From: a virus
Virus record (IMG/VR): IMGVR_UViG_3300046096_001078
Coordinates: 1 to 20,583 of that record
Length of the DNA: 20,583 nt
Strand: one strand, 5' to 3'
Made by a program: the position numbers and the translations under genes. The notes under the pieces were generated by a model, which was not told the origin of the DNA, made no database searches, and saw only the letters and a list, made by a program, of their open reading frames with translations. Within the stretch, counting starts at the first letter, position 1, and each line of letters begins with the position of its first letter. Of this stretch, positions 1 to 20,583 are shown piece after piece.

Positions 1-98
1 ATAACTTTAAAACCAATATAATAAACGTAACAGTTATCGACACCGCCCAAACTGCTCAAGAATTGGCTATTAAGTACGGGTTTAAACTCATAGGATGA
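1..98 (+). CDS. C-terminal end of a hypothetical protein (partial, runs off left edge)
   Basis: An open frame enters from the left edge and stops at TGA 96-98. The visible tail reads about 31 residues and ends in QELAIKYGFKLIG. Nothing identifies the family. It is followed by a short hairpin and then by the same A/C-rich leader type that precedes the other genes of the array, so it is most likely the preceding member of that array. The supporting evidence is only the absence of stops and the position, so the call is moderate. Confidence 0.5.
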   Translation, partial: NFKTNIINVTVIDTAQTAQELAIKYGFKLIG

Positions 99-112
99 GA
101 CACACTCGGCAA

Positions 113-136
113 GGTGCGATGCCCTTAAAACGCACC
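113..136. repeat. Inter-gene hairpin (6-bp stem)
   Basis: GGTGCG (113-118) pairs with CGCACC (131-136) around a 12-nt loop. It sits between the partial gene and the next start and is followed by AATAAACACTAAATAAA, the leader used through the array. There is no T-tract, so it is not a standard intrinsic terminator. Confidence 0.5.
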
Positions 137-176
137 AATAAACACTAAATAAATTAACAATAGGAAACTAAACAAA

Positions 177-635
177 ATGATCAATCTAATTAAAGAATCA
201 GCTCAAGACAATTTAATCGCCGCTATTTTTGAAATTATCGAAAAAGTAATCCCCTGCCCTTATATGAGTTTAGAGAAGAAGAAAGCCTATTTAAAAGGAG
301 CGGAAAACTTTTATAACTTCATTGATATTTTAATAGACGAAGATGCCGAACCCAACGGTTATTTTTTAACCGATAACGAAATCTATAATTATTTAAGAGA
401 GAACGATCCCACCCTTGAGAAAAGCCTCGCCCTATTAAATAAGAAAGGACAGTACGATGACCACCAAGATTGTCAAGCATGGTTATTAGCTGAATTATTA
501 GTTAAGGAATATAAAGAAAATTATTTATATAATCACTTATCAGAATACGAAGCGGCGATTAATGACTTCTTAAATTATCATGAATATTTTTACAATTGTA
601 CAGATGATGGAATAACTAGAGATTATTGTTATTAA
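177..635 (+). CDS. Hypothetical array protein sharing a motif with the next gene
   Basis: 152 residues, soluble, acidic, with no known domain that I recognise. Residues about 68-91 read as Y..YL.ENDP.L..SL.LL.KKG, and the same pattern with the same DP-to-KG spacing recurs near residues 186-208 of the next protein (757-1527). The two are probably homologous over this C-terminal part. The ATG is preceded by the leader AACACTAAATAAA and a weak purine stretch (AGGAAA). It is the first complete gene of the left array. Function unknown; reality of the gene is well supported by its length, leader and downstream hairpin. Confidence 0.82.
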   Translation: MINLIKESAQDNLIAAIFEIIEKVIPCPYMSLEKKKAYLKGAENFYNFIDILIDEDAEPNGYFLTDNEIYNYLRENDPTLEKSLALLNKKGQYDDHQDCQAWLLAELLVKEYKENYLYNHLSEYEAAINDFLNYHEYFYNCTDDGITRDYCY

Positions 636-647
636 ATAATCATCTAA

Positions 648-698
648 TTTATACTTAATTCTCTTTTTATCACCCTTTAAAAGGGAATTAAGTATAAA
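648..698. repeat. Array hairpin 1 (about 20-bp stem)
   Basis: Left arm 648-667 and right arm 679-698 pair almost perfectly, with a 14-bp perfect outer stem (TTTATACTTAATTC against GAATTAAGTATAAA), one G-T pair and an 11-nt loop. It starts 12 bases after the stop codon of the upstream gene. No T-tract follows; instead comes ATAGCAACACACTAAAACAAAC, part of the shared leader. Nearly the same element recurs at 4106, 4614 and 5161. Confidence 0.85.
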
Positions 699-756
699 TA
701 TAGCAACACACTAAAACAAACGTCAAAAATAAACAATAAACAACGGAGTTAAAAAG

Positions 757-1527
757 ATGAATTATCAAGAATTAGGAATCCTAGCATTAGAAATCATAGA
801 GACTGATATTAATATCAAATTTCAATCAAATTGGGAAGTCTACCAAAATAAATGTCAAGCTATATTAATTATAGATACTGAACGCTTTTTTTTCGTAGAT
901 AATAAAAAAGCTCAAGAATACCACGAAGAGGTATTCGCACTAAAAGAAGACGCAGGAAAGGATTTAGCTATTATTTTTTATGATACCGTTACCCCAGCGG
1001 AAGCTATTGGGCAGGATTGCTTTATATTAACTGATAACCAAGAACAATTTACTGTAGTAACAATTGATGGAAAAGTTATAAAAGATGGTCTTTTTCCGTG
1101 CCAAAATCACATAAAAACCGCTATAACCAATCATAAAGTCGGAAAAAGTCTCAACGGACAACATCAAGAAAAATTTAATAAATTCAAAGAATTAATCGCC
1201 ACTACTTTTATAAAAACAACCGATAATTTAATCTATGAATTATTAAGCAAAGGAAACAGAATAAATAGTTTATATTTCGAAGAAAGCTACAACGCCCCAG
1301 CAATAATTGGTTACAAGGAATATATGGATAAACATGACCCCATGTTAATTCAATCTTTTAAACTAATAAAAGAGAAAGGAGAAGACCCCCTAAAATACAG
1401 TTTTATCGATTTAACAGCCTTTTTTTATCGTGATAAACTCTATAAAGAAACCACCACTAAATTTAATGAAATTAAAGAATTATGGAACGAGTTAATAGAC
1501 TTCGCACTCGCCGCCAAAAATAACTAA
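757..1527 (+). CDS. Hypothetical array protein, two-part
   Basis: 256 residues. The N-terminal half (about 1-115) alternates predicted strands (AILIID, RFFFVD, LAIIFYD, FTVVTIDGKVI), suggesting a compact alpha/beta or beta domain. The C-terminal half is helical and contains Y.EYM..HDPML..SF.LI.EKG at about 186-208, matching the preceding protein (177-635) with identical motif spacing. The ATG follows ACGGAGTTAAAAAG, a reasonable ribosome site. Its first 15 coding bases (ATGAATTATCAAGAA) are identical to those of the gene at 3209, although the proteins then differ, as if the junction element extended into the coding start. No function can be assigned. Confidence 0.85.
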   Translation: MNYQELGILALEIIETDINIKFQSNWEVYQNKCQAILIIDTERFFFVDNKKAQEYHEEVFALKEDAGKDLAIIFYDTVTPAEAIGQDCFILTDNQEQFTVVTIDGKVIKDGLFPCQNHIKTAITNHKVGKSLNGQHQEKFNKFKELIATTFIKTTDNLIYELLSKGNRINSLYFEESYNAPAIIGYKEYMDKHDPMLIQSFKLIKEKGEDPLKYSFIDLTAFFYRDKLYKETTTKFNEIKELWNELIDFALAAKNN

Positions 1528-1578
1528 TTTATACTTAAATCGCTTTATATCACCACCGTAAATCGATTTATGTATAAA
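1528..1578. repeat. Array hairpin 2 (15-bp stem)
   Basis: TTTATACTTAAATCG (1528-1542) pairs with CGATTTATGTATAAA (1564-1578) with one mismatch; it begins immediately after the stop codon. The TTAAATCG/CGATTTA segment replaces the TTAATTC/GAATTAA segment of hairpin 1 on both arms, so the stem is kept while its sequence changes. Confidence 0.8.
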
Positions 1579-1610
1579 CACACCAGCAACTAAAATAATC
1601 GAAAAATACC

Positions 1611-1639
1611 TTGTCAAAACTAAATAATTGAGTTACAAT
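1611..1639 (+). promoter_or_regulatory. Sigma70-type promoter with a dyad in the spacer
   Basis: TTGTCA (1611-1616), exactly 17 bases, then TACAAT (1634-1639). The spacer carries AACTAAATAATTGAGTT (1618-1634), an inverted repeat with one mismatch. The sequence from -35 through the expected start (ACAGTTA) closely matches the promoter at 5312-5340. It would drive the gene at 1681; the dyad is in the right place for a repressor site. Confidence 0.7.
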
Positions 1640-1680
1640 AAAAACAGTTAGAAAACACTAAATAAAACGGAGTTAAAAAA

Positions 1681-2406
1681 ATGAGTTTGAGTTACAGAGA
1701 GTTACAAAAAATTTTAAGAAAATACCGTGAAAAAGGACTTACTACAATTAAATTAAATATTAAAAAAGTTCTTTTAATAGCTGAATATGAAAGAATAACA
1801 GGCAATAAACAAGACGAAGAAACAAAAACTTCTTTTACCACTTTTCAAGGATATTACGATTATACAAACATATTACTTCCCCAAGAAGAATTTTTATTAA
1901 AGAGTTTATATGAATATCAATATCAAGGCTATATTTATTTTAATTTCTTGAATGCTAATTATTCCGAATTATTAGAAGAATATAACAGAATAAAAGAAAT
2001 AGAGAGAAGAGGAGAATTAGTACAGGTAGAGAAAAAGATTAAATTTGTAGAACCTAAAGAAATAGATTACAATTTACTTCGCAGGAATTTTCCCTTAGGT
2101 CATTCCATTGATATTTTATTGGGACTAAGGGCAGTTGAAAGAGATACCGATCTAGCTTGGATCATAGAAGAAGCCGAAGCATGGCTAAAAGGCTTGTTAA
2201 AGGAGATAGAAAAAGTCAAAATAACAGGCGACTACAGGTTTTGCCATAAAGAACCTGAAATGAAACTTTACTTAATAAAAAAGGCTTTACACCCCGACAA
2301 TATAAAATTAAGAGAAGAACAAAAAAGCCAACTTAAATCGCAAAATTTAAGTTGGAAAGAAATAGCTAAGAAAAAAAGAACCCGTCCGTCTTTTTATCAA
2401 AAATAG
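1681..2406 (+). CDS. Hypothetical array protein, helical-hairpin domain plus shared C-terminal domain
   Basis: 241 residues, lysine- and glutamate-rich, stop TAG. Residues about 4-38 (SYRELQKILRKYREKGLTTI and following) form a SAP/HeH-like helical hairpin of a kind I associate with cyanobacterial hypothetical proteins; a related segment opens the protein at 4196. Residues about 125-210 (PKEI, then RRNF, LLG, KKALHPDNIK) align with the proteins at 3627 (PQEI at 18-21, NKALDKKNIK) and 4196 (PQEI at 58-61). The three are therefore domain-sharing paralogues. A recognisable promoter lies just upstream and the ATG follows ACGGAGTTAAAAAA. A nucleic-acid-binding role is possible from the hairpin but is not shown. 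Confidence 0.85.
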   Translation: MSLSYRELQKILRKYREKGLTTIKLNIKKVLLIAEYERITGNKQDEETKTSFTTFQGYYDYTNILLPQEEFLLKSLYEYQYQGYIYFNFLNANYSELLEEYNRIKEIERRGELVQVEKKIKFVEPKEIDYNLLRRNFPLGHSIDILLGLRAVERDTDLAWIIEEAEAWLKGLLKEIEKVKITGDYRFCHKEPEMKLYLIKKALHPDNIKLREEQKSQLKSQNLSWKEIAKKKRTRPSFYQK

Positions 2407-2459
2407 TTTTATAGTTAAATCACTTTATATAACCCCAATGGAGTGATTTAACTATAAAA
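2407..2459. repeat. Array hairpin 3 (18-bp perfect stem)
   Basis: TTTTATAGTTAAATCACT (2407-2424) pairs perfectly with AGTGATTTAACTATAAAA (2442-2459). It starts at the base after the TAG stop. Relative to hairpin 1, C/G becomes G/C in the outer stem (ATACTT to ATAGTT with GTAT to CTAT), a compensatory change. Confidence 0.85.
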
Positions 2460-2514
2460 CACACCAACACACTAAAACAACCGTCAACAAATAAACAAAA
2501 ACGAGGAAAGAAAA

Positions 2515-2967
2515 ATGCAAGAACTAAAAAAAGAAATCGAAAATATCTTAGATACTGAATTAAAAGGGTTTTATTATTCTATCGAGATAGATAACGGCTG
2601 GAGTCTTGATTTAAGAAAAAATACAGAATATATAAATATAGATATAAGTTATTTTCATAACTTCAAAAAAGAAAATAATTATATTTCCCTTTCTCTAAGA
2701 GAAGACACATTACTACTTATTGGCAGAGGTGGCTGCGTATGGCGTAAAAGCGATCCAGCGAATAAAAGTGAATGTTACGAAATTTCGCACGAAAAAATCC
2801 CCTTCCGCACCCCCAAAAAAGAAAAAACAGCAGTATTAAAAGCAATCAAAAACATTTGCCAAAAATATAAATCTATCCTTAAAGATATTGCATCAAGAGG
2901 CCTGTTATTAAGTGAAGATTTACCAGCAACCATTGAATTAATTAACAGTCACCAGAAAACACCTTAA
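2515..2967 (+). CDS. Hypothetical array protein
   Basis: 150 residues. The first 100 residues suggest a beta-rich fold (YYSIEID, EYINIDISYF, NYISLSL, TLLLIGRGG), followed by a lysine-rich helical tail (about 100-125) and a short leucine-rich end. There is one Cys in a GGCVW context and another in SECYE. No family recognised. The start follows ACGAGGAAAGAAAA, one of the better ribosome sites in the array, with the usual CACTAAAACAA leader above it. Confidence 0.82.
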   Translation: MQELKKEIENILDTELKGFYYSIEIDNGWSLDLRKNTEYINIDISYFHNFKKENNYISLSLREDTLLLIGRGGCVWRKSDPANKSECYEISHEKIPFRTPKKEKTAVLKAIKNICQKYKSILKDIASRGLLLSEDLPATIELINSHQKTP

Positions 2968-3010
2968 AATCTCTTATTTAATTTATCGCAAAAATCTCAA
3001 ATATTCTCAA

Positions 3011-3094
3011 TAAAAATAGAATAAATACATAATTTCTACTTATATTTATTCTATTTTTATATAATTTATTTCTATCTATTTTATATAGATAGAA
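3011..3094. repeat. Two consecutive hairpins downstream of the 2515 gene
   Basis: First, TAAAAATAGAATAAATA (3011-3027) pairs perfectly over 17 bp with 3043-3059, loop 15. Second, TTCTATCTAT (3070-3079) pairs perfectly with ATAGATAGAA (3085-3094), loop of 5. They lie in the 241-base gap before the 3209 gene. They differ in sequence from the usual array hairpins; both are very AT-rich, so they may act as pauses, terminators or protein sites. Confidence 0.6.
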
Positions 3095-3114
3095 CGCAAC
3101 GATTTAGTTATATT
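3093..3114 (+). promoter_or_regulatory. Possible promoter with degenerate copy of the spacer dyad
   Basis: AACGCAACGATTTAGTT (3093-3109) resembles the AACTAAATAATTTAGTT dyad of the 5312 promoter, retaining the right half-site, and is followed by TATATT (3109-3114) as a -10. The -35 is poor. It lies about 95 bases ahead of the gene at 3209. The leader also holds a tandem TTAGCTTGA repeat (3137-3154). Confidence 0.35.
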
Positions 3115-3208
3115 ATAAAGGTAAGCAAAAAAAAAGTTAGCTTGATTAGCTTGAAAAGATCAAACACTTACAAAAAACAAAAACAAACACTTAACAGGAC
3201 CTAGAAAA

Positions 3209-3547
3209 ATGAATTATCAAGAAAATTTCATTATGAATTGTTACGATCCAAACAAAATAGATTGGTTTATCTTAAATGATGTGATTATCGGTTATGGAAA
3301 TAAAGAACAATATCAGGAATTAGAAAAGCAATTCCATAAAGAAAAAAAACTAAATAATGAAAAAAGTAAATTTCATTTATATACTAATAATATAAATGAA
3401 ATTGAAATGTTAAGAACAAAAAGAGATTGGGGATTACTTCGATTAAATACAGTAGAGCCCGAAGACATAGATTGGTTGTTAGATCAACTAGCAGACATAC
3501 AAAACGAACTAAACGCACATAAAAAATATAAACCTTTCAAAGATTAA
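3209..3547 (+). CDS. Hypothetical array protein
   Basis: 112 residues, charged, starting MNYQENF. It contains DWFILNDVIIGYGN near residues 18-31 and a C-terminal helix rich in Asp, Leu and Glu (EPEDIDWLLDQLADI). No family recognised. The start context is AACAGGACCTAGAAAAATG, nearly the same as for the genes at 3627 and 4196, and the first 15 coding bases equal those of the 757 gene. A HIP1 site (3551-3558) follows the stop. Confidence 0.8.
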   Translation: MNYQENFIMNCYDPNKIDWFILNDVIIGYGNKEQYQELEKQFHKEKKLNNEKSKFHLYTNNINEIEMLRTKRDWGLLRLNTVEPEDIDWLLDQLADIQNELNAHKKYKPFKD

Positions 3548-3565
3548 TCGGCGATCGCCAATAAG

Positions 3566-3587
3566 AGTTACTCAGTAATGAGTAACT
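3566..3587. repeat. Array hairpin 4, GTAA tetraloop type
   Basis: AGTTACTCA (3566-3574) pairs perfectly with TGAGTAACT (3579-3587) around GTAA, which as RNA is a GNRA tetraloop. It has the same place in the gene-hairpin-leader layout but a different stem family; a relative (GTGGTTACT/AGTAACCAC) lies at 5719-5741. Confidence 0.7.
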
Positions 3588-3626
3588 AACCACAAAACAA
3601 ACACTAAATAAAACGGACTTAGGAAA

Positions 3627-4094
3627 ATGAATTATTACGATCAAAAAATAGCTGAACTTATGGCAACATATACACCTCCCCAAGAAATAACAGAAGATTT
3701 TATCACAGATATTTACTGCGAAGGTAGCATAAGATACAATGATTTAAAAGTATTACTAGGATCACCAAAATTTTATTATTGTTCTAAGTTTAAAGATTAT
3801 GCGAGGAACTTTAAATATCTTATTGATAGCTTGAATTATGAATTAGAAAGAGCAAAACGGGAATTATTAGCAGTGCCAACCAATCAGCAAGAAGGCTATA
3901 AGCAGTGGGTATGGTTATTAAATAAAGCATTAGACAAGAAAAACATTAAGGAAAGACGGACTGAATTAACTCAGGCATGGCTTAAAACTAACAGAGAGCA
4001 AAAAGAGTTTTATGACAGACAAACGTTATTAAGAGATGTTCGTATTATGGCAGAAGAATTCGGACTTAAATTAAAGCCAGAATACAGATTATAA
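3627..4094 (+). CDS. Hypothetical array protein, PQEI-domain paralogue
   Basis: 155 residues, helical and basic. PQEITEDFI at 18-26 and LLNKALDKKNIKER at 97-110 align with the equivalent parts of the proteins at 4196 and 1681, with the region between of similar length, so this protein is essentially the shared domain with a short N-terminus and an added C-terminal helix (about 125-155). The ATG follows ACGGACTTAGGAAA, preceded by AAACAAACACTAAATAAA. Function unknown. Confidence 0.83.
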   Translation: MNYYDQKIAELMATYTPPQEITEDFITDIYCEGSIRYNDLKVLLGSPKFYYCSKFKDYARNFKYLIDSLNYELERAKRELLAVPTNQQEGYKQWVWLLNKALDKKNIKERRTELTQAWLKTNREQKEFYDRQTLLRDVRIMAEEFGLKLKPEYRL

Positions 4095-4105
4095 ATTATC
4101 TAATC

Positions 4106-4152
4106 TATGTTTAATTCTCTTTATTTAACAAGGTAAAAGGGAATTAAGCATA
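4106..4152. repeat. Array hairpin 5 (17-bp stem)
   Basis: 4106-4122 pairs with 4136-4152 with two G-T pairs. It is close to hairpin 1, but ATACTT becomes ATGTTT on the left while GTAT becomes GCAT on the right, i.e. an A-T pair changed to G-C and a C-G pair changed to a T-G wobble. Confidence 0.82.
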
Positions 4153-4195
4153 AACACTCCGCCAACAAAAACAAACACTAACAGGACTTAGAAAA

Positions 4196-4603
4196 ATGAA
4201 TATAGCTTACTTAGAATCACAGTTAACAGAATTTAAACAGAAAAGATTAACTAGCATTGAGTTACCAATAAATGACAATTATAAATTGTTAGATGAATTT
4301 TTAAACGTAATGGTCAAGCTAGATCAAGAGAAGAAAGCAAAAGCAAAACTAAAAGAGATTGCACAACCTCAAGAAATAACTAAAGATTTTATTGATCAAA
4401 ACTTTTCTAGTTTACAGCGTTATTTTATATATCCTTTATTCGGTTTTAGTGATTGCACCAGTAACGAATTAATCGCCGCCCGTATTATGGCAACTCAAGA
4501 ATTAAACCGACTAGAAAGAGTTAAGAAATCGGAACAGGATCAAGACTTAAAAAGATGTTGCGATAAAGCTATTTATATCTTGAGAAAAGGATTAAATAAA
4601 TAA
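4196..4603 (+). CDS. Hypothetical array protein, hairpin domain plus PQEI domain
   Basis: 135 residues. Residues 5-36 (YLESQL, then KRLTSIELP and LLDEF) match the N-terminal helical hairpin of the 1681 protein (YRELQK, KGLTTIKLN, LIAEY). Residues 58-131 (PQEITKDFI, SLQRYF, PLFG, ELIAARIM, then KGL near the end) match the domain in the 3627 and 1681 proteins. It is thus a shorter version of the 1681 protein lacking its linker and C-terminal tail. Start context AACAGGACTTAGAAAAATG. Function unknown. Confidence 0.83.
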   Translation: MNIAYLESQLTEFKQKRLTSIELPINDNYKLLDEFLNVMVKLDQEKKAKAKLKEIAQPQEITKDFIDQNFSSLQRYFIYPLFGFSDCTSNELIAARIMATQELNRLERVKKSEQDQDLKRCCDKAIYILRKGLNK

Positions 4604-4613
4604 TACCCTAATC

Positions 4614-4660
4614 TATGCTTAATTCTCTTTGTTTAACCAGCTTAAAGAGAATTAAGTATA
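4614..4660. repeat. Array hairpin 6 (17-bp stem)
   Basis: 4614-4630 pairs with 4644-4660 with one G-T pair. The sequence is nearly the same as hairpins 1, 5 and 7, and AACACACCACCAACTAAAACAAACACTAAC, split here over the leader, follows directly. Confidence 0.82.
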
Positions 4661-4704
4661 AACACACCACCAACTAAAACAAACACTAACAAGATGTCAA
4701 AAAA

Positions 4705-5148
4705 ATGATTAACACAGAAGAAGTTACAAAGGCGATCGCCAATCAATATAAATATCAATTAGATGAATCAAGATATATAACTGAATCAATAGAAAAGGGT
4801 ATCAGAGAAGGGCAAAAAATGATCGAAAACCATAATAGAATATACAACGATCACGCAGTCATAAAAGTAGAAACTAGCAAACTTTTAGGCTTTCTTGGAA
4901 CTACACCGACAAGTTATTCTAATAAATACATTTTTTTTAATCAATTTGTAAATAATAAGATCCCTTCAGATAAAACAATAATAGACAGATCGGAGAAGGG
5001 GGAAATTATGGCGATCATTAGAAAAATAAAATTTAACGCTTATTGCATAGAGAGAAAAGGCGACACTCAATCCCCCGATTTTATTTACATCATAGAAAAC
5101 CACAAAACAAAACGCTATCTAATGCAAGATTATTTAAGCAACAGATAA
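4705..5148 (+). CDS. Hypothetical array protein
   Basis: 147 residues. A charged helical N-terminus (about 1-50) precedes a mixed region with KLLGFLG at 59-65 and strand-like C-terminal segments (MAIIRKIKF, DFIYIIEN). A HIP1 site (4732-4739) lies inside the coding region near its start. The leader is AAACAAACACTAACAAGATGTCAAAAAA, with almost no Shine-Dalgarno signal, so the start is less certain than for neighbours; no better in-frame start is visible. Function unknown. Confidence 0.8.
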   Translation: MINTEEVTKAIANQYKYQLDESRYITESIEKGIREGQKMIENHNRIYNDHAVIKVETSKLLGFLGTTPTSYSNKYIFFNQFVNNKIPSDKTIIDRSEKGEIMAIIRKIKFNAYCIERKGDTQSPDFIYIIENHKTKRYLMQDYLSNR

Positions 5149-5160
5149 TCATCTAATCTA

Positions 5161-5203
5161 TACTTAATTATCTTTATTTAACCACCTAAAAGAGAATTAA
5201 GTA
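5161..5203. repeat. Array hairpin 7 (15-bp stem)
   Basis: 5161-5175 pairs with 5189-5203 with one mismatch. The element is in the hairpin 1/5/6 family and is followed by a decayed version of the leader (GACGAAACAAACGCTAAAAAC). Confidence 0.78.
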
Positions 5204-5311
5204 CAATCTACCCCGACAGACGAAACAAACGCTAAAAACAAAGAATAAACACTATATAACTTTATCTTATACTTTCTTTAGTTTTTATCAGATATTTCTA
5301 TAGGTTAACTA

Positions 5312-5340
5312 TTGATTAAACTAAATAATTTAGTTAAGAT
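5312..5340 (+). promoter_or_regulatory. Sigma70-type promoter with perfect 17-bp dyad in the spacer
   Basis: TTGATT (5312-5317), 17-base spacer, TAAGAT (5335-5340). AACTAAATAATTTAGTT (5319-5335) is a perfect inverted repeat with 7-base arms and a 3-base centre, placed so that a bound dimer would block polymerase. The block is shared with the promoter at 1611-1639. Transcription should begin near 5347, at the base of the leader hairpin. Confidence 0.75.
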
Positions 5341-5345
5341 AGAGA

Positions 5346-5408
5346 CAGTTAAAAAAGTTTAAATTTTAGGTAGCCCCTCCTTGATGTGGTTTTAAATTTC
5401 TTTAACTG
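5346..5408 (+). promoter_or_regulatory. Structured 5' leader with anti-Shine-Dalgarno-like loop
   Basis: CAGTTAAA (5346-5353) pairs with TTTAACTG (5401-5408) and the helix continues to 5363/5391, giving about 17 of 18 pairs. The 27-base loop contains GCCCCTCCTTG (about 5372-5382), resembling the CCTCC of the 16S rRNA tail. The hairpin would form at the very 5' end of the transcript from the 5312 promoter, 39 bases ahead of the start of the 5448 gene. It could be a translational control element or a small RNA; this is inference. Confidence 0.6.
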
Positions 5409-5447
5409 ACAAAAATAAAAAACAATTAATCAAGAGAGAGAAAAAGA

Positions 5448-5645
5448 ATGTTTAGAGGGTTAGATTTTGACGATATGATAGATAAATTTTACAGTAATGG
5501 GAATCATGTATTACAAGTAAAAGAATGTAATATTCTGGCAGTAACTGTAATAACTGATATATTTGATGCCCCGATAGCTATTGATTGGGGAACTTTTAAA
5601 GAATATAGCTTAATGAATGCCACAAGATGGTTAGAAATCAGATAA
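5448..5645 (+). CDS. Small hypothetical protein behind a regulated promoter
   Basis: 65 residues, acidic N-terminus (DFDDMIDKF), then a strand-rich stretch (ILAVTVITDI) and WLEIR at the end. No family recognised. The ribosome site is a purine run (AAGAGAGAGAAAAAG). It is the only array gene with both a strong promoter carrying a perfect dyad and a long leader hairpin, so it may be the most tightly controlled. Three further hairpins follow the stop. Confidence 0.72.
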   Translation: MFRGLDFDDMIDKFYSNGNHVLQVKECNILAVTVITDIFDAPIAIDWGTFKEYSLMNATRWLEIR

Positions 5646-5668
5646 ACAGATAAAACAAACCGCAGTTA

Positions 5669-5794
5669 AAAATCAATCTGATAACGTGATTTTAGCTTAT
5701 GTACATTAATTAATTGACGTGGTTACTGAGTAAGTAACCACCAAACAAAAACACTTCTAAATCGTCCATTACAACCAGTTAAAAACGATTTAGA
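5669..5794. repeat. Three hairpins after the 5448 gene
   Basis: AAAATCA (5669-5675) pairs with TGATTTT (5687-5693). GTGGTTACT (5719-5727) pairs with AGTAACCAC (5733-5741) with a 5-base loop and is a relative of hairpin 4. TCTAAATCGT (5756-5765) pairs with ACGATTTAGA (5785-5794) and is followed by AACACTAGTAATAACTAAAACAAC, the array leader. Stacking of hairpins of different families suggests several insertion or deletion events here. Confidence 0.6.
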
Positions 5795-5842
5795 TAGAAA
5801 CACTAGTAATAACTAAAACAACACCAACTAAAGAGGTAAAAA

Positions 5843-6163
5843 ATGCCATTTGGATTAGAAACAATGCACAAAGTTTACGATATAACCATTACTGTTAATT
5901 GTGATTTTATCGTAATTCAACCACAAGTAGAATTGTCACAAGACATAAAAAATGAAATTTTAGACATCCAAAGCATACCAGGACATAGAATTTCATGGGA
6001 ATCTCGTTTAAAAAGTTATTACCTTTTACCAGCAACAGCATCAGATAAACTAGCAACCGCTGAACGTATAGCCATCGGGTTAGAAGAAAAAGGGCTTACA
6101 GTGTTGAGGCTTATAGATCATTACATTAAGCCAGTAATTTGTCAATCTTATATTATCGCTTAA
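5843..6163 (+). CDS. Small protein with a HARP-like motif
   Basis: 106 residues. After an N-terminal strand region (YDITITVNCDFIVIQP) come ILDIQSIPGHRISWESRLKS at about 40-59 and YYLLPA, then a helix (DKLATAERIAIGLEEKG). The IPG-R-x-W...LP pattern resembles the HARP module found with annealing helicases (SMARCAL1-like) and in short phage or plasmid proteins, which recognises branched or single-stranded DNA; here it stands alone without a helicase. The similarity is by eye. Ribosome site AAAGAGGTAAAAA is shared with the next gene (spacing 30 bases), suggesting a duplicated start module. Confidence 0.75.
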   Translation: MPFGLETMHKVYDITITVNCDFIVIQPQVELSQDIKNEILDIQSIPGHRISWESRLKSYYLLPATASDKLATAERIAIGLEEKGLTVLRLIDHYIKPVICQSYIIA

Positions 6164-6773: not shown

Positions 6774-7032
6774 TTAAATCAATGCGGGTTGTATTATTTT
6801 TAAATTCTCTTTTAATTCTTCAATGTAATCTTTGTTTAATTCGATCGCCACATATTTTTTATTTTGCCTACTTGCTTCATTTACCACCGTACTAATACCA
6901 GCAAATGGTTATTTTCTAAACCTAATTAATCTAATTTCTTAATCCAAAATACGGAGGAGAAGTAACACAACAATCTATTGACTTATTAGCTAACGACTTT
7001 AAAACTTCCCGACAATCACCTTCTAAAATCAT
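6774..7032 (-). pseudogene. Remnant of a DNA N4/N6 methyltransferase
   Basis: On the minus strand an ATG at 7032 opens MILEGDCREVL, then SIDCCVTSPPYFGLRN and a TAG at 6933-6931. TSPPYFGLR is the catalytic motif of amino-methyltransferases, in the usual place after GDCREVL. From 6908 another frame reads PFAGISTVVNEA, then KKYVAIELNKDYIEELK and ends at TAA 6774-6776, corresponding to the C-terminal SAM-binding motif (FxGxxT) and the IEL..YIE end. About 200 or more residues between them are missing. The order suggests the class with TSPPY before FxG. The product cannot be functional. Confidence 0.8.
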
Positions 7033-7329
7033 CTTATTTTAATTGCAACTATAAAACAATCATACTACACAAAAAGATAACTTGACCATAGATGAAAATC
7101 TATACATTAATAATTAGTCAATTTATCCCTTATTTATTGTCTTTAGGTATGAATAGTTATTTATCGGTGAAGGTAGCCTTATTTCTTTAAATAACCATCA
7201 CTAGAGAAAATAATTACTTATTCCCTTAACTGCTTCTTTTCTCTTTAACAAAAAAAAGAAAAAAAAATCTCGTCCGCATAATTAGATTGATCTTTATTTA
7301 TTTGATGAATAATTGAGTTAGTTATTATT

Positions 7330-7428
7330 ATGTCATACGAAAACCTAACGATAGGCAACCTTAATCAGGAAGCCTGATACAGACTATCTAATGCAGAAAC
7401 TCGTCGATTGGTGAAACTCTATCATTAA
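7330..7428 (+). pseudogene. Decayed small frame interrupted by TGA
   Basis: ATG 7330 opens MSYENLTIGNLNQEA, hits TGA at 7375-7377, then continues in the same frame as YRLSNAETRRLVKLYH before TAA 7426-7428. Both halves look protein-like and helical after the stop. It lies where a terminase gene would precede the portal, and LSNAETRRLVKL is loosely like the start of some terminases, but this is only a suggestion. Chance is not excluded. Confidence 0.3.
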
Positions 7429-7552
7429 TAAAACAACTATAGATAAAACTCTATAGATAAAGATAGATCATTAATTGGTTAAACTTATCGATTAAAGAAT
7501 AGTCATAAATAAAACTGATGAATCGTCAATTGGCAAAAAACTATAGATGAAA
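7401..7552. repeat. Cluster of degenerate direct repeats
   Basis: Motif A, TCRTYRATTGG-like, occurs at 7401-7411 (TCGTCGATTGG), 7468-7478 (TCATTAATTGG) and 7523-7533 (TCGTCAATTGG), each followed by an A-rich stretch. Motif B, CTATAGATRAA, occurs at 7437-7447, 7451-7461 and 7541-7551. Spacing is irregular. It could be an iteron-like region, a protein-binding cluster or relics of duplication. Confidence 0.5.
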
Positions 7553-7652: not shown

Positions 7653-9116
7653 ATGAAGATCATTAAATTGAATAAAGATAGCTTGTATAATCCGCATAGT
7701 GGTTTGGGAACAGAATATAGTCCTTTAAAAAATACTTTTTTCGATTTCAACTTGCCAAATAATCCAGATAATAGAGATAGTTTTTCATTGCTGTATCGGA
7801 CGTTATGGCAAATTCAAAAAGTAGTAGATTATTTTCCGAATGAGATGACAAAAGAATGGGGAAAATTAACCTTAAAAAGGAATAGGAAAGTACAGAATGA
7901 AATAGACGAAGCTACGGATAATTTAAGAGAGGTTTTTAGAGAAGGTCAAAAATTAGCTAATTTATACGGATCAGCAATGGCAGTAATTTATATTGAAGAT
8001 GGTGGCGAGTTATACGAACCAGTAAATTATGACAAAATAAAATCTTTTCAAGGGTATTCAAGAATATTTGATAGATGGGAATTGACAATAGCCCCTAAAA
8101 GTTATTCTAATAATGAACCCTATAATCCTGAATATTACACTTTATTGACTTATTCAAGCAATCAAAAAATACCGAATAATACTTTCATCCATAAAGATAG
8201 AATATTGAGATTCAGGGGAAAACAATTACCCCCCTATGAACAAATATTAAATCAAGGTTGGGAGGATTCGGTATTACAACCATTCTTAAATCCGCTGAAA
8301 AATTATCTAGCTGGTTATCAATATGTTACAGAAGCACTAAAAGATTTTGAAATAATGATTGTCAAGATACAAGATTTAAACGAAAAGTTGTCGGCAAGTG
8401 AACAGGGTTATAGAGCGATAAAACAAAGAGCAAAAGAAGTGAGTATTGATGCAAGTAGTCAGCGTGGTTTATGGATGGATAAAGAAACGGAAGAGGTACA
8501 GATATTAAGTAGAAATTTCAGTAATGTAGAGAAAATAGTCGATATTGCATTAAGAGAAATGATCGGAGCTTCGGGAATTGATCCAGGTGAATTTTATAAA
8601 GAAAAAGATCAAATAAAAGCTAACTCAAAAGAAGAAAGGTTGGCATCAGCTAATCGTATTTTATCTTTACAAGAAGAGAAATGGGGGAAGCTAATAGAAA
8701 CACAATTAGATTTGATTCTAGCCCCGTACAATATCAAAAAAAGCAATAGAAAATGGGAATGGCTATCAACTTATTCCCCAACAGAAAATGAGAAGTTAGA
8801 AATGGACGATCAAGAGTCAATTACTTTGGATAGATATATCTCTAATGGTGTATTAACGGCTGAGGAAGTAAGATCATCTGTATTTGATAATTCCGATACA
8901 AAAATAATGTTAAATGAAGTCGATAAAAAAAATGTATTAAAAGAACCTGAAAATATAGAAGAAAAACCATTAAATGAAACTATAGAAAAAAAAGAAAATA
9001 AAAAAGATGCTCAAGATGAGGTAGAGAAATTTGTAGTACAAGAAAATTTAGAATTATTACCAAATAGTTATTATGATATAGATTTAAAAGACTTAGAAGC
9101 AATTGAAGAAGATTAA
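7653..9116 (+). CDS. Phage portal protein (DUF1073/PF06381 type)
   Basis: 487 residues, usual for the family. The portal forms the dodecameric DNA channel at the capsid vertex. Family-typical stretches: LLYRTLWQIQKVVDYFPNEM (46-65), LANLYGSAMAVIYIEDG (101-117), FIHKDRILRFRG (178-189), then ILSRNFSNVEKIVD (284-297) and IGASGIDPGEFY (304-315), where related portals read SRNFSGL..VL. and ASGIP. The last 70 residues are acidic and lysine-rich and probably disordered. The ATG has little ribosome-site signal. No terminase precedes it and no capsid gene follows it; the neighbours downstream run the other way, meeting its stop with a 4-base overlap. Residue assignments are from memory of the family. 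Confidence 0.85.
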   Translation: MKIIKLNKDSLYNPHSGLGTEYSPLKNTFFDFNLPNNPDNRDSFSLLYRTLWQIQKVVDYFPNEMTKEWGKLTLKRNRKVQNEIDEATDNLREVFREGQKLANLYGSAMAVIYIEDGGELYEPVNYDKIKSFQGYSRIFDRWELTIAPKSYSNNEPYNPEYYTLLTYSSNQKIPNNTFIHKDRILRFRGKQLPPYEQILNQGWEDSVLQPFLNPLKNYLAGYQYVTEALKDFEIMIVKIQDLNEKLSASEQGYRAIKQRAKEVSIDASSQRGLWMDKETEEVQILSRNFSNVEKIVDIALREMIGASGIDPGEFYKEKDQIKANSKEERLASANRILSLQEEKWGKLIETQLDLILAPYNIKKSNRKWEWLSTYSPTENEKLEMDDQESITLDRYISNGVLTAEEVRSSVFDNSDTKIMLNEVDKKNVLKEPENIEEKPLNETIEKKENKKDAQDEVEKFVVQENLELLPNSYYDIDLKDLEAIEED

Positions 9117-9700: not shown

Positions 9701-10237
9701 TTAAAATTTATTAATTTTTGTTATTATTAATGCTATCAAATATCGATTATTAACATTTATTTTTTGTTTAAGTATTTCTTCTAAAATCTTTTCTAGTCGT
9801 TCATTGATTTTATGTATATTTTGGTTAATGAAATCTTGTAATATTTGACATTCCTCGTCAAGTAGATTATAAAATCGACAAAATCTATCAAATTGCCCAT
9901 CAGAAAAAGGATATTTATCTTCCTCTAAAAAGATAACTTCATTGATTCGGTCATAAATAAATTTTGCGGGGACAAACGGCTCTATTTTAGGAAATACCAA
10001 CTCATAATTAAGATAATCTTTTTGCAATTTAGTGATCATATTTAATTTATTCAATAATGCCGATAAATTAGACTGATACAATTCTCCCGTATCTTTTTTC
10101 ACCTGTGGGATTAAAAAACCGTCATTTCTTTTATTAAAGCCCGTGAACAGCTTTTTTTTTGAGATATACACGGGCGTATCATAACTTACTTTTTCACTTA
10201 GTAGGTTCATTGCTTTTCTTACCAAATATAACTTCAT
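9701..10237 (-). CDS. Hypothetical protein
   Basis: 178 residues, helical, lysine- and leucine-rich, with a central aromatic section (PFSDGQFDRFCRFYNLL at about 110-126) and a helical C-terminus. No signal peptide or membrane segment. It overlaps the end of the upstream gene by 4 bases (stop and start share ATGA-type overlap) and ends one base before the GTG of the next gene, so it is in a tight operon with the three small paralogues. Function unknown. Confidence 0.82.
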   Translation of the reverse strand: MKLYLVRKAMNLLSEKVSYDTPVYISKKKLFTGFNKRNDGFLIPQVKKDTGELYQSNLSALLNKLNMITKLQKDYLNYELVFPKIEPFVPAKFIYDRINEVIFLEEDKYPFSDGQFDRFCRFYNLLDEECQILQDFINQNIHKINERLEKILEEILKQKINVNNRYLIALIITKINKF

Positions 10238-10431
10238 TTTAAGTAATCTTTTAATACTTCTAAAATATCGTTTACGTTTACCTCACTTAAATCTTTTAAT
10301 TGTATATTGAGTAGTAAAACCTCATCTTTATCTGCTTTTACTTCTATTGATGCAAACTCGGTTTTTATTGCATACTTAGAACCTTCAATATTATTTATTC
10401 CTTTACTTTCTAATACTTTTCTTAAATCCAT
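10234..10431 (-). CDS. Small paralogue 3 of a tandem trio
   Basis: 65 residues: M-D-L-R-K-V-L start, central strands (YAIKTEFASIEVKAD, VLLLNIQL) and ending VNVNDILEVLKDYLK. The opening M-[DE]-L-[QR]-K-x-L, the strand core and the ending [VK]x[DE]IL..[LI]K are shared with the genes at 10457 and 10706. It overlaps the next gene by 4 bases. Function unknown; the fold is probably beta-sheet plus a C-terminal helix. Confidence 0.78.
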   Translation of the reverse strand: MDLRKVLESKGINNIEGSKYAIKTEFASIEVKADKDEVLLLNIQLKDLSEVNVNDILEVLKDYLK

Positions 10432-11236: not shown

Positions 11237-11698
11237 ATGACAATTTCGTATCAAGGGTTACTGACAGAATTAAAAAGTATAAGCAAGGGGTTAAAAGGAG
11301 TAACGGGAACTCAGTACAACGCACTGTTTACCTTTAAAGAAGGCACGGGAAATATTGTTATTGATGAAACTACAGGCAACTATAATTTAGAAGGTGAAAC
11401 CCTCAGAACAGTTAAAGCTAAATTAATCAAAAGAAAAGACGGTACAGTAGAAAGTGACGGCGGTTTAAATTACTCAAGGGTATATTGTGAAGGTTGGTTA
11501 GTTATGCCCGTAGAATATAACGGACGCATTCCTAATGTAGTTAATTGTAGTTTCATTCAAAACAATTTATCTTATGAAGGTAAGTTTTATTTCACGGACG
11601 CTATTACAACACCAGTTACTGAATCTATAGATTTGGCGATCGCTATTGGGCAAGCTATACAAGGTTACTTTGAAATAAAAGGAGACAACGGATTATAA
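11237..11698 (+). CDS. Probable phage neck or tail protein
   Basis: 153 residues, soluble, beta-rich. It begins MTISYQGLLTELKSISKGLK, contains GETLRTVKAKLIKRKDGTVE and ends DLAIAIGQAIQGYFEIKG. I do not recognise a named family, but it is translationally coupled (TAATG, one-base overlap) to a tail-completion-like gene, and the layout of a strand-rich body with a terminal helix is common among head-tail connector and tail proteins. It carries a HIP1 site (11636-11643) near its end. Assignment to virion structure rests on context. Confidence 0.7.
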   Translation: MTISYQGLLTELKSISKGLKGVTGTQYNALFTFKEGTGNIVIDETTGNYNLEGETLRTVKAKLIKRKDGTVESDGGLNYSRVYCEGWLVMPVEYNGRIPNVVNCSFIQNNLSYEGKFYFTDAITTPVTESIDLAIAIGQAIQGYFEIKGDNGL

Positions 11699-12885: not shown

Positions 12886-12905
12886 ATTTTAGCAAAGTAT
12901 TTTTT
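12886..12905 (-). promoter_or_regulatory. Conserved upstream motif, possible extended -10
   Basis: On the plus strand ATTTTAGCAAAGTATTTTTT; read on the minus strand it contains TGCTAAAAT, an extended -10 shape. The same motif with one change is at 17386-17405 ahead of another minus-strand gene. Here it ends about 10 bases before the start codon, so transcription from it would be almost leaderless; it may instead be a regulator site. Confidence 0.4.
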
Positions 12906-12953
12906 ACGTGTAATTAATTTTAAATAAAACTATAATTTTATCTCTAAATTTGT

Positions 12954-12959
12954 TACAAT
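12954..12959 (+). promoter_or_regulatory. Candidate -10 of the antirepressor-like gene
   Basis: TACAAT sits within TTGTTACAATAAACAA, an interrupted dyad (TTGTT/AACAA). No good -35 is present 17 bases upstream (TATAAT). It would give a leader of about 105 bases before the 13070 start, containing AGCAA/TTGCT arms that could pair. Confidence 0.35.
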
Positions 12960-13069
12960 AAACAAAGGAAGTGAATACTAGAAAAGCAACCAGTAACGCA
13001 AATTACCAATTGCTTATTAACATCTAGCATCCCCTAAACCAGTTAAGTAACATAGGAGATATATTTATT

Positions 13070-13750
13070 ATGGCAGAAAAAGCAGTCGTTGCACAGATAG
13101 ATTTTGGATATACAAAGATTGAGGGTTTGATGTTGCCTGATGGTAGCTATCGAATGGGGGTTACTCAAGTAACAAAATTAATGCCTACTCTCGCCACTCA
13201 AAATAATGCAACTAGAGAAGTGAAAGCCTTGCTAAGTAAAGAAAGTTTGCTATTCAAATTAAAGTCAGAATTGAATAGTCAACCTGTTAATACGATTTCG
13301 ATAGATCAATTTATTCAATTAATTAAAAATGTGGTCATTCAGAAAAAGAATGAAGAGGCGATTAATTTATTGATGATATTGGCTGAGGAATCAATAGAAC
13401 GCCGTTTTAATCATGCCTTCGGGGTTAAATGTACAGAAGAAGATTACAATAAGCTATTAACTATACGCTGGAAACGATTATTAGCTCGTAGAGATTATAC
13501 GGATGTTTTAATGGAACGTCATATTGATTTATACGGCACTAAACCAATACCTGAGGATTATAAAGTATGGACAGTGAAAGTAAACAAAGCTCTTTTTGGT
13601 TGCCAACAGTTCAAATGTAATCGTGATAATATGACAACCGATCAACAAGAAATGATTACTGATTTTGAACGAACAGTCAAACGTTTTGCTTTAAAATATG
13701 ATCATGCTACTCCTATGGAATTAATTGATCGGACTTTGGAGACCTTTTAA
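13070..13750 (+). CDS. Antirepressor-like (Bro-N-like) cyanobacterial phage protein
   Basis: 226 residues. Residues about 6-40 (VVAQIDFGYTKIEGLMLPDGSYRMGVTQVTKLM) resemble the Bro-N/antirepressor start, in which a small sheet with PDG(S/T)Y leads into a recognition helix. A central helical part carries AEESIERRFNHAFG and ARRDYTDVLMERHIDLYG (139-156), resembling the segment (RR.LTDAI..Y) of cyanobacterial relatives I recall. Such proteins bind DNA or repressors and sit at phage switch regions. The ATG follows ATAGGAGATATATTT, the best ribosome site in this part. It stands alone on the plus strand. Family call is by eye. Confidence 0.75.
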   Translation: MAEKAVVAQIDFGYTKIEGLMLPDGSYRMGVTQVTKLMPTLATQNNATREVKALLSKESLLFKLKSELNSQPVNTISIDQFIQLIKNVVIQKKNEEAINLLMILAEESIERRFNHAFGVKCTEEDYNKLLTIRWKRLLARRDYTDVLMERHIDLYGTKPIPEDYKVWTVKVNKALFGCQQFKCNRDNMTTDQQEMITDFERTVKRFALKYDHATPMELIDRTLETF

Positions 13751-20179: not shown

Positions 20180-20458
20180 GATTTTTAAATTCCACTTATA
20201 CAAATATTTTTTTTGTCTAGCAATATGTCTAGCTTCTGCGATAAATTCATCATGCGGATCAAGTTCTAATGCCTTATCGTAATGATGAATTGCCCGATCA
20301 TAGTCTCCTAAGTAAACGAAAAGCAAACCTACGTTGTACCATGATTCAGGATTTTCTCGGTCTGTTTCTAAGACAGTTTGAAAATATATTAATGAATCTT
20401 CAAACTGTCCTTTGTTCAAAGTTATATGACCATTTAAGAAATTAGTTAGTTCATTCAT
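20177..20458 (-). CDS. TPR-repeat protein
   Basis: 93 residues. Two tetratricopeptide repeats: a weaker one at about 5-36 (NGHITLNKGQFEDSLIYFQT) and a canonical one at about 37-70, with WYNVGLLFVYLGDYDRAIHH and YDKALELDP, followed by a capping helix (EFIAEARHIARQKK). It serves protein-protein contact. Its ATG overlaps the stop of the upstream reductase gene by one base (TAATG), so the two are translationally coupled. Short TPR proteins are common in cyanobacteria; the partner is unknown. Confidence 0.85.
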   Translation of the reverse strand: MNELTNFLNGHITLNKGQFEDSLIYFQTVLETDRENPESWYNVGLLFVYLGDYDRAIHHYDKALELDPHDEFIAEARHIARQKKYLYKWNLKI

Positions 20459-20583
20459 TAATTAGCACATGAAATACATTCTTCTTTAAAGTTATCTTTT
20501 TGCACTACACGCACATAATAAATAGCTTTACATTCTGATTCCCAAGCGTTTAACATTACCTCATACATATCTTTTGCTGTTAA
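20458..20583 (-). CDS. C-terminal end of a ribonucleotide reductase large subunit (partial)
   Basis: The last 41 residues of a gene that runs off the right edge: LTAKDMYEVMLNAWESECKA, then IYYVRVVQKDNF and ECISCAN at the stop. (K)xIYYVR is the usual end of class I reductase alpha subunits (YYLR in many), and the C-terminal CxxC (ECISC) matches the redox-active pair that re-reduces the active site. Ribonucleotide reductases are common in cyanophages and fit the helicase and thymidylate synthase here. Class cannot be fixed from the tail alone. Confidence 0.72.
   Translation of the reverse strand, partial: LTAKDMYEVMLNAWESECKAIYYVRVVQKDNFKEECISCAN

Follow-up and report, generated by a model that had tools for sequence, protein, structure and literature searches.

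Organisation of the locus

The window analysed here is the complete IMG/VR record IMGVR_UViG_3300046096_001078 (20,583 bases), probably a genome fragment of an uncultured virus, in which a row of ten small open reading frames (ORFs, each named by its first base) is punctuated by a repeated hairpin-leader module (Table 1). An earlier note on this DNA had described eight junctions sharing one order of elements, and that order was confirmed: stop codon, hairpin, A/C-rich leader, weak Shine-Dalgarno sequence and ATG. Seven homologous copies of the module were found, one per junction, with pairwise identities of 47-85%. Two of the junctions listed in the note, those preceding ORF 177 and ORF 3627, turned out to have unrelated short hairpins (at 114-139 for ORF 177), and the copy at 5150, before ORF 5448, was missing from that list. 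Pfam, PHROGs and PADLOC searches with the ten array ORFs yielded nothing convincing, and AlphaFold2 models were too poor to use (predicted local distance difference test score of 46 for ORF 177, from a single sequence, and of 34 for ORF 1681, from 3 sequences).

Among the other proteins of the window are a portal protein (7653-9116; phrog_146, E 8e-61), whose best cultured match is that of Synechococcus phage S-CBS4 (28%), a thymidylate-synthase-like protein and a helicase. Through the portal gene we found four related contigs, L008/G001 (15 kb), L009/G002 (50 kb), L010/G003 (67 kb) and L011/G004 (93 kb), hereafter L008, G002, G003 and G004; G002 and G003 are 100% identical across 18.7 kb. The HIP1 motif GCGATCGC, whose over-representation is a known trait of cyanobacterial genomes, occurs at 8 sites in the window (0.03 expected) and at 16-21 sites in three of the related contigs (0.08-0.14 expected). 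Because of this excess the host is almost certainly a cyanobacterium, as had been proposed.

Table 1. Coordinates of the modules, other hairpins and leaders, candidate promoters and ORFs of the array (aa, amino acids; bits, covariance-model score; dG, folding free energy; z, z-score of the hairpin).
Feature	Position	Strand	Remarks
Module M1	641..725	+	hairpin 647-699 and A/C leader; 11 nt past ORF 177 stop, before ORF 757; 91.5 bits, dG -21.6, z -7.3
Module M2	1521..1604	+	hairpin 1528-1578; directly past ORF 757 stop; 87.8 bits, z -5.7
Module M3	2401..2486	+	hairpin 2406-2460, 23 bp perfect; at ORF 1681 stop, before ORF 2515; 84 bits, dG -26.3, z -9.3
Module M5	4097..4180	+	hairpin 4106-4152; before ORF 4196; 90.1 bits
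Module M6	4605..4688	+	hairpin 4614-4660; before ORF 4705; 94.5 bits
Module M7	5150..5234	+	hairpin 5159-5205; after ORF 4705; 83.7 bits
Module M8	5743..5827	+	before ORF 5843; most diverged copy; 65.1 bits
Second hairpin type (AGTTACT..AGTAACT) with AAACAAACACTAA leader	3566..3626	+	hairpin 3566-3587, before ORF 3627; z -4.8
Short GTTACT..AGTAAC hairpin	5720..5741	+	second window copy; first hairpin before ORF 5843
Long AT hairpin	3010..3060	+	unrelated to the modules; after ORF 2515; z -6.3
Leader of ORF 3209 (ACAAAAACAAACACTTAACAGGA)	3174..3208	+	homologous to other leaders, without family hairpin; 95% identity over 37 nt to leader 4165-4200
Sigma70-like promoter TTGTCA-17-TACAAT	1611..1639	+	followed by ORF 1681 leader; 10/12; 0/60 shuffles reach its score
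Weak repeat of the 1611 promoter region	5312..5340	+	upstream of ORF 5448; 81% over 47 nt; score within shuffles
ORF 177	177..635	+	152 aa; distant homologue G004 46593; 3' end 81% identical (aa) in L008
ORF 757	757..1527	+	256 aa orphan; absent between its neighbours in L008
ORF 1681	1681..2406	+	241 aa; N-terminal ~40-50 aa common to G004 44719/45693 and G002 28978; absent between its neighbours in L008
ORF 2515	2515..2967	+	150 aa; in L008 directly follows ORF 177' across one module; 67% aa identity
ORF 3209	3209..3547	+	112 aa orphan
ORF 3627	3627..4094	+	155 aa orphan; sole relative found is near-identical, in L008
ORF 4196	4196..4603	+	135 aa orphan; short PQEITxDFI stretch in common with ORF 3627
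ORF 4705	4705..5148	+	147 aa orphan
ORF 5448	5448..5645	+	65 aa orphan
ORF 5843	5843..6163	+	106 aa orphan

Sequence and distribution of the modules

Each module consists of a 5' flank ending in CTAAT, an AT-rich stem of 18 bp, a loop of about 11 nt (9-13 nt) containing ACC, and a leader with the consensus AACACACCAnCAACTAAAACAAACrCyAA, after which a gene-specific stretch with the weak Shine-Dalgarno sequence leads to the ATG; at several genes the likeness between modules extends into ATGAATTAT. The leader core AAACAAACAC is exact at four places only (3181, 3595, 4169 and 4677) and degenerate elsewhere, and when up to one mismatch was allowed 13 matches were obtained against 3.0 expected, a number reached by none of 100 shuffles. 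A blastn search of the window with the junction 4095-4200 retrieved the regions at 4608 (E 4e-28), 5148 (1e-15), 639 and 3176 (1e-11) and 3594 (2e-4). All modules lie on the gene strand, are confined to positions 641-5827 and stand between a stop codon and the following start, with the hairpin placed -1 to 11 nt past the stop in six of the seven copies. Hairpin z-scores ranged from -3.6 to -9.3.

As the earlier note had proposed, a covariance model was built from the junctions, using the seven of the window, which score 65-94 bits. The model recovered an independent copy outside the set used to build it, at L008:210-293 (78.5 bits, E = 1.5e-15). With filters off, the other 14 kb of the window yielded nothing above 17.4 bits, and the best match in the 209 kb of sister-phage contigs (G002-G004) reached 19.4 bits. 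When IMG/VR was searched with a DNA pattern of the stem base plus leader, L008 was the sole true match, the other ten stretches scoring at most 16.9 bits, and Rfam gave no match.

The second hairpin type, AGTTACT..AGTAACT, was found in 4 copies against 0.15 expected (window 3566-3587 and 5720-5741, G004 46521-46546 and G002 29853-29878). In both lineages it stands 3' of stop codons within the accessory locus.

Covariation in the stem

Covariation was analysed over 18 stem pairs in eight distinct module copies. Across these, 88.9% of the stem cells are paired, and two-sided changes were observed at 7 of the 18 pairs; compensated cells numbered 17, compared with 6.8 in shuffles. One pair appears as G-C, C-G, U-A and U-G, another is split 4:4 between A-U and U-A, and a third displays five pair types. 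The covariation score was 0.347, compared to 0.134 for shuffled alignments (0/500 shuffles), and slid registers came nowhere near. Since the stem covaries so strongly, these results indicated that the hairpin structure is under selection. In the core stem (columns 13-23) the wobble-type cells comprised 5 G-U and 0 A-C on the gene strand, an asymmetry that lends modest support to a structure acting as gene-strand RNA. Over the whole stem the count (8 G-U, 7 A-C) was uninformative because two copies have shorter stems.

Gene content and spacers in related phages

From window position 2785 onward L008 and the window are 99.9% identical; the first 588 bases of L008 belong to a diverged allele (about 80-87% identity). 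Its order is ORF 177', one module and ORF 2515' (149 aa, intact), with ORFs 757 and 1681 absent, and thus the gene content changes exactly between modules, in agreement with the previous suggestion that genes come and go at module ends. The joining module agrees with the 177 side in its left flank and with the leader of ORF 2515 in its own leader, which in this single case is what recombination between two modules, or the insertion of two gene-module units, would leave behind. From this one comparison between L008 and the window we infer recombination at the repeats. ORF 2515 is itself a mosaic between the two haplotypes (L008 321-767, window 2515-2967), its first ~22 and last ~60 residues being near-identical and its middle strongly diverged.

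G002 and G004 likewise carry a row of small genes upstream of the portal gene, at this same locus, but different ones (KilA-N-like, helix-turn-helix-like and zinc-ribbon-like by eye). These sister phages have a repeated cassette of their own, consisting of the promoter TTGACAAAATAAATCAAATAAGAGATAATAG (TTGACA-N17-GAYAAT) and an A/C-rich leader, sometimes right behind a long hairpin (copies at G004 44618, 45632, 50349 and 51040 and at G002 28917 and 32087; weaker ones at G004 44310 and G002 28613). Hairpin after the stop, promoter and A/C leader are found together at G004 50292/50349 and G002 32031/32087, and within IMG/VR the promoter-leader cassette occurs only in these related contigs. Homologues of ORF 177 and of the ORF 1681 N-terminus (Table 1) are present in the sister phages in a different order and with different junctions. 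Because the sister locus has other genes, another order, other junctions and another cassette, the compared sequences indicate that the accessory locus keeps a common plan with lineage-specific spacers.

These comparisons bore out the expectation that flanking genes differ among relatives, in both order and content, and the lineage-specific module sequences support the idea that the array originated independently of the cassettes of T4-type phages. The claim that each gene moves with its module as a unit was not supported, since the homologues of ORFs 177 and 1681 have quite different junctions in the sister phages, and for the same reason modules seem to spread locally rather than to travel with genes.

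Modules as putative intercistronic RNA elements

A sigma70 promoter scoring above dinucleotide shuffles was detected at only one of the 10 array junctions of the window, whereas all six tested cassettes of the relatives had one. The family hairpins are not followed by a terminator U-tract (0-2 T in 8 nt, with A/C-rich sequence instead), and a terminator scan flagged no family module, although its loop limit of 8 would also exclude loops of 9-13 nt. A hairpin that terminated transcription with no promoter behind it would silence the next gene, and therefore read-through with a role at the RNA level appears the most economical reading; the missing promoter of the T4-type cassette likewise argues for a function of the RNA. 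Start regions in the array have less structure (mean minimum free energy -1.25 kcal/mol) than those of other genes of the phage family (about -3.7; Mann-Whitney p = 0.0014).

On balance we consider it probable, if only slightly so, that the modules act between the cistrons of a cyanophage accessory operon as RNA elements, combining read-through, processing or stability hairpins and, secondarily, homology for gene gain and loss. The array genes would be read as long transcripts from few promoters (the one at 1611 and others outside the window), with RNA polymerase passing the hairpins. Each hairpin would be a putative processing or stability element, for example an entry or block point for RNase III or RNase E, which would separate the cistrons and shield either the upstream message at its 3' end or the downstream message at its newly formed 5' end. 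The A/C leader, on which the following gene has its ribosome site, would stay open so that ribosomes can load. A secondary consequence, in evolution, would be that the modules give non-homologous genes short stretches of homology, through which recombination could add or remove genes at module boundaries without harming expression, as may have happened with ORFs 757 and 1681.

Several observations weigh against this explanation. The module stems are AT-rich, with imperfect pairing in some copies (5150, 5743); the wobble test on the core stem was picked after the data had been seen; and the transcription units and cleavage are predictions from the sequence of an uncultured virus. Gene gain or loss rests on the single comparison of L008 with the window, and the divergence of L008 upstream of 588 would also allow a recombinant or chimeric assembly, yet ORF 2515' is intact across the join. 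Moreover, three copies permit a weak -35 in the loop and a -10 at the stem base, which might represent a phage-specific promoter class. A further step, which we put forward tentatively, is that a promoter-less RNA spacer amplified in this lineage both processes polycistronic mRNA into units translated independently and joins recombining genes, having replaced a promoter-based cassette that the sister cyanophages carry at the same locus.

The promoter early stem-loop (PeSL) cassettes of T4-type phages, reportedly described by Arbiol in 2010 and by Comeau in 2014, suggest another possibility, namely that the upstream transcript ends at the hairpin and transcription starts anew from a promoter in the module, each gene being an independent, shuffleable unit of expression. 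The sister phages have exactly this layout of hairpin, promoter and A/C leader at the same locus, and one such promoter exists in the window (1611), but its absence from the other nine junctions, together with the lack of a U-tract, makes this mechanism unlikely for the window modules.

Promoters read by a phage polymerase or sigma factor could instead be nested in the hairpin, with the loop and stem base as recognition elements, as in the hairpin promoters of N4. The order of hairpin, leader and gene would fit, and most copies retain the ACC of the loop and the (G)TATAAA of the stem base. Neither loop nor stem base, however, is conserved in the diverged copies at 5743 and in L008, no polymerase gene was identified in a partial survey of the relatives' gene content, and the giant ORF of G003 encodes a tape measure, so that we regard such promoters as improbable.

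It would also be surprising if the modules were primarily DNA recombination or mobile elements that move genes, comparable to attC sites, repetitive extragenic palindromes (REP) or miniature inverted-repeat transposable elements (MITE). One repeat sequence does lie between unrelated genes, and gene content changes between two modules in L008. The copies, however, have a single orientation, always lie between a stop and the next start and occur nowhere else, their leader carries a ribosome site, and the sister-phage homologues of ORFs 177 and 1681 lack the module. Neither an integron integrase, among the window proteins searched, nor a Y1/RAYT (REP-associated tyrosine transposase) gene was recognised in the window, and the module hairpins, read by eye, are without the paired GTTRRRY/RYYYAAC boxes of attC, which separates the array from integron cassettes. 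REP- and MITE-like palindromes are dispersed in two orientations, unlike these copies on one strand of one locus.

It is very improbable that a gene was duplicated in tandem together with its spacer and that its coding part then diverged fast. ORFs 3627 and 4196 do share the PQEITxDFI stretch (88% over 26 nt), but the all-against-all comparison of the ten array proteins gave no significant similarity (best E 0.013), an outcome in favour of the earlier note, which had named tandem duplication as refuting its reading. Equally old coding parts should still be recognisable next to spacers 47-85% identical, and the spacers must therefore have spread, or stayed similar, separately from the genes.

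Comparison with known systems

In T7, the RNase III sites of the early region are hairpins that mark the gene boundaries in a polycistronic mRNA and have a ribosome-binding leader behind them. The window modules have the same layout with unrelated sequences and are known here from their sequence only; their stems of 17-23 bp would make a plausible RNase III substrate. Intrinsic terminators combine a G+C-rich stem with a U-tract, and the AT-rich stems of the window, with no U-tract behind them, differ on both counts.

In the passages of PMC4503421 that deal with them, PeSL cassettes are repeated stem-loops between small accessory genes of T4-type phages, tied to gene gain, loss and shuffling. 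The stem-loop of the window likewise stands immediately 3' of the upstream gene, but the modules have no early promoter and carry a covarying stem and an A/C leader; the hairpin-promoter cassettes of the sister phages are closer to PeSLs. Neither the portal family phrog_146 nor the tape measure of G003 establishes the window phage as T4-type. The extended start-associated sequences (ESAS) of cluster K mycobacteriophages are imperfect inverted repeats of 17 bp, spaced by 4-13 bp and located just upstream of the conserved translation-start sequence of non-structural genes, and their consensus varies by subcluster (PMC3203893). Similarly, an 18-bp stem with a 9-13 nt loop precedes the leader in the window and module types differ between sister phages; the window starts, however, lack the 13-bp GGGATAGGAGCCC element, the leaders are AAACAAACAC-like, A/C-rich and longer, and the host group is unrelated. 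Given the missing PeSL promoter and the absence of the 13-bp start-associated sequence, the array resembles PeSLs and ESAS and belongs to neither.

In the haloarchaeal virus HGTV-1, a TATA box-like region and an inverted repeat precede most left-side ORFs, for which a part in regulation and shuffling has been proposed (PMC3950731). Both viruses thus have a repeated inverted-repeat unit ahead of many ORFs, that of the archaeal virus including a promoter element. The ORFanage of cyanophage S-PM2 is likewise a row of ORFans at a locus of gene gain and loss, where stem-loops are sparse and PeSL-type shuffling was judged unlikely (PMC4503421); the modules of the window are dense by comparison. In its evolution the array is like PeSL, ESAS and HGTV-1, and in its expression it is probably more like the T7 intercistronic processing sites.

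Related cyanophages offer, at one locus, a natural comparison of promoter-based and RNA-based ways to make accessory genes exchangeable. This problem is otherwise known from phages of the T4 type, of mycobacteria and of haloarchaea. If the proposed role is true, the hairpin-leader unit would serve multi-gene constructs in cyanobacteria as a compact spacer, and models of the modules would help to locate cyanophage accessory-gene loci of unknown function.

Other features of the phage family

Portal searches of a bacterial genome collection returned no prophage or host relative, and no nucleotide match was found to window 1-3100 among cultured phages or to window 3100-5845 among plasmids. A Listeria phage match of 37 nt inside the coding DNA of ORF 4196 was at chance level and was rejected. 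In G003, the minus strand of 15311-30784 is a single ORF of 5157 aa; an N4-like virion polymerase was considered and rejected, since the product is a tape-measure protein with a phage tail lysozyme domain, which would imply an exceptionally long tail.

Two dispersed intergenic repeats are common to the window and its relatives. The first, a non-coding repeat of ~300 bp (10 copies aligned), lies among other places upstream of the portal gene (window 7150-7470; G002 20207-20533 and 33039+; G003 1271-1545 and 46352-46670; G004 514-777, 10192-10427, 34026-34316, 72301-72536 and 52270-52692). It consists of a conserved A/T-rich half and a half of short AACCTA..AGG repeats, had no Rfam match in the window, and could be a promoter or regulatory region. 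The second, of ~170 bp, was found at window 12894-13077, at G004 1808-1983, 11504-11682, 41462-41635 and 59103-59374, and at G002 223-360, 21650-21756 and 39305-39548. Finally, the minus strand of the window at ~6780-7040 may hold the remnant of a decayed methyltransferase gene, whose counterpart in G004 (51790-52403) looks partly open, as two adjacent ORFs (both by eye only).

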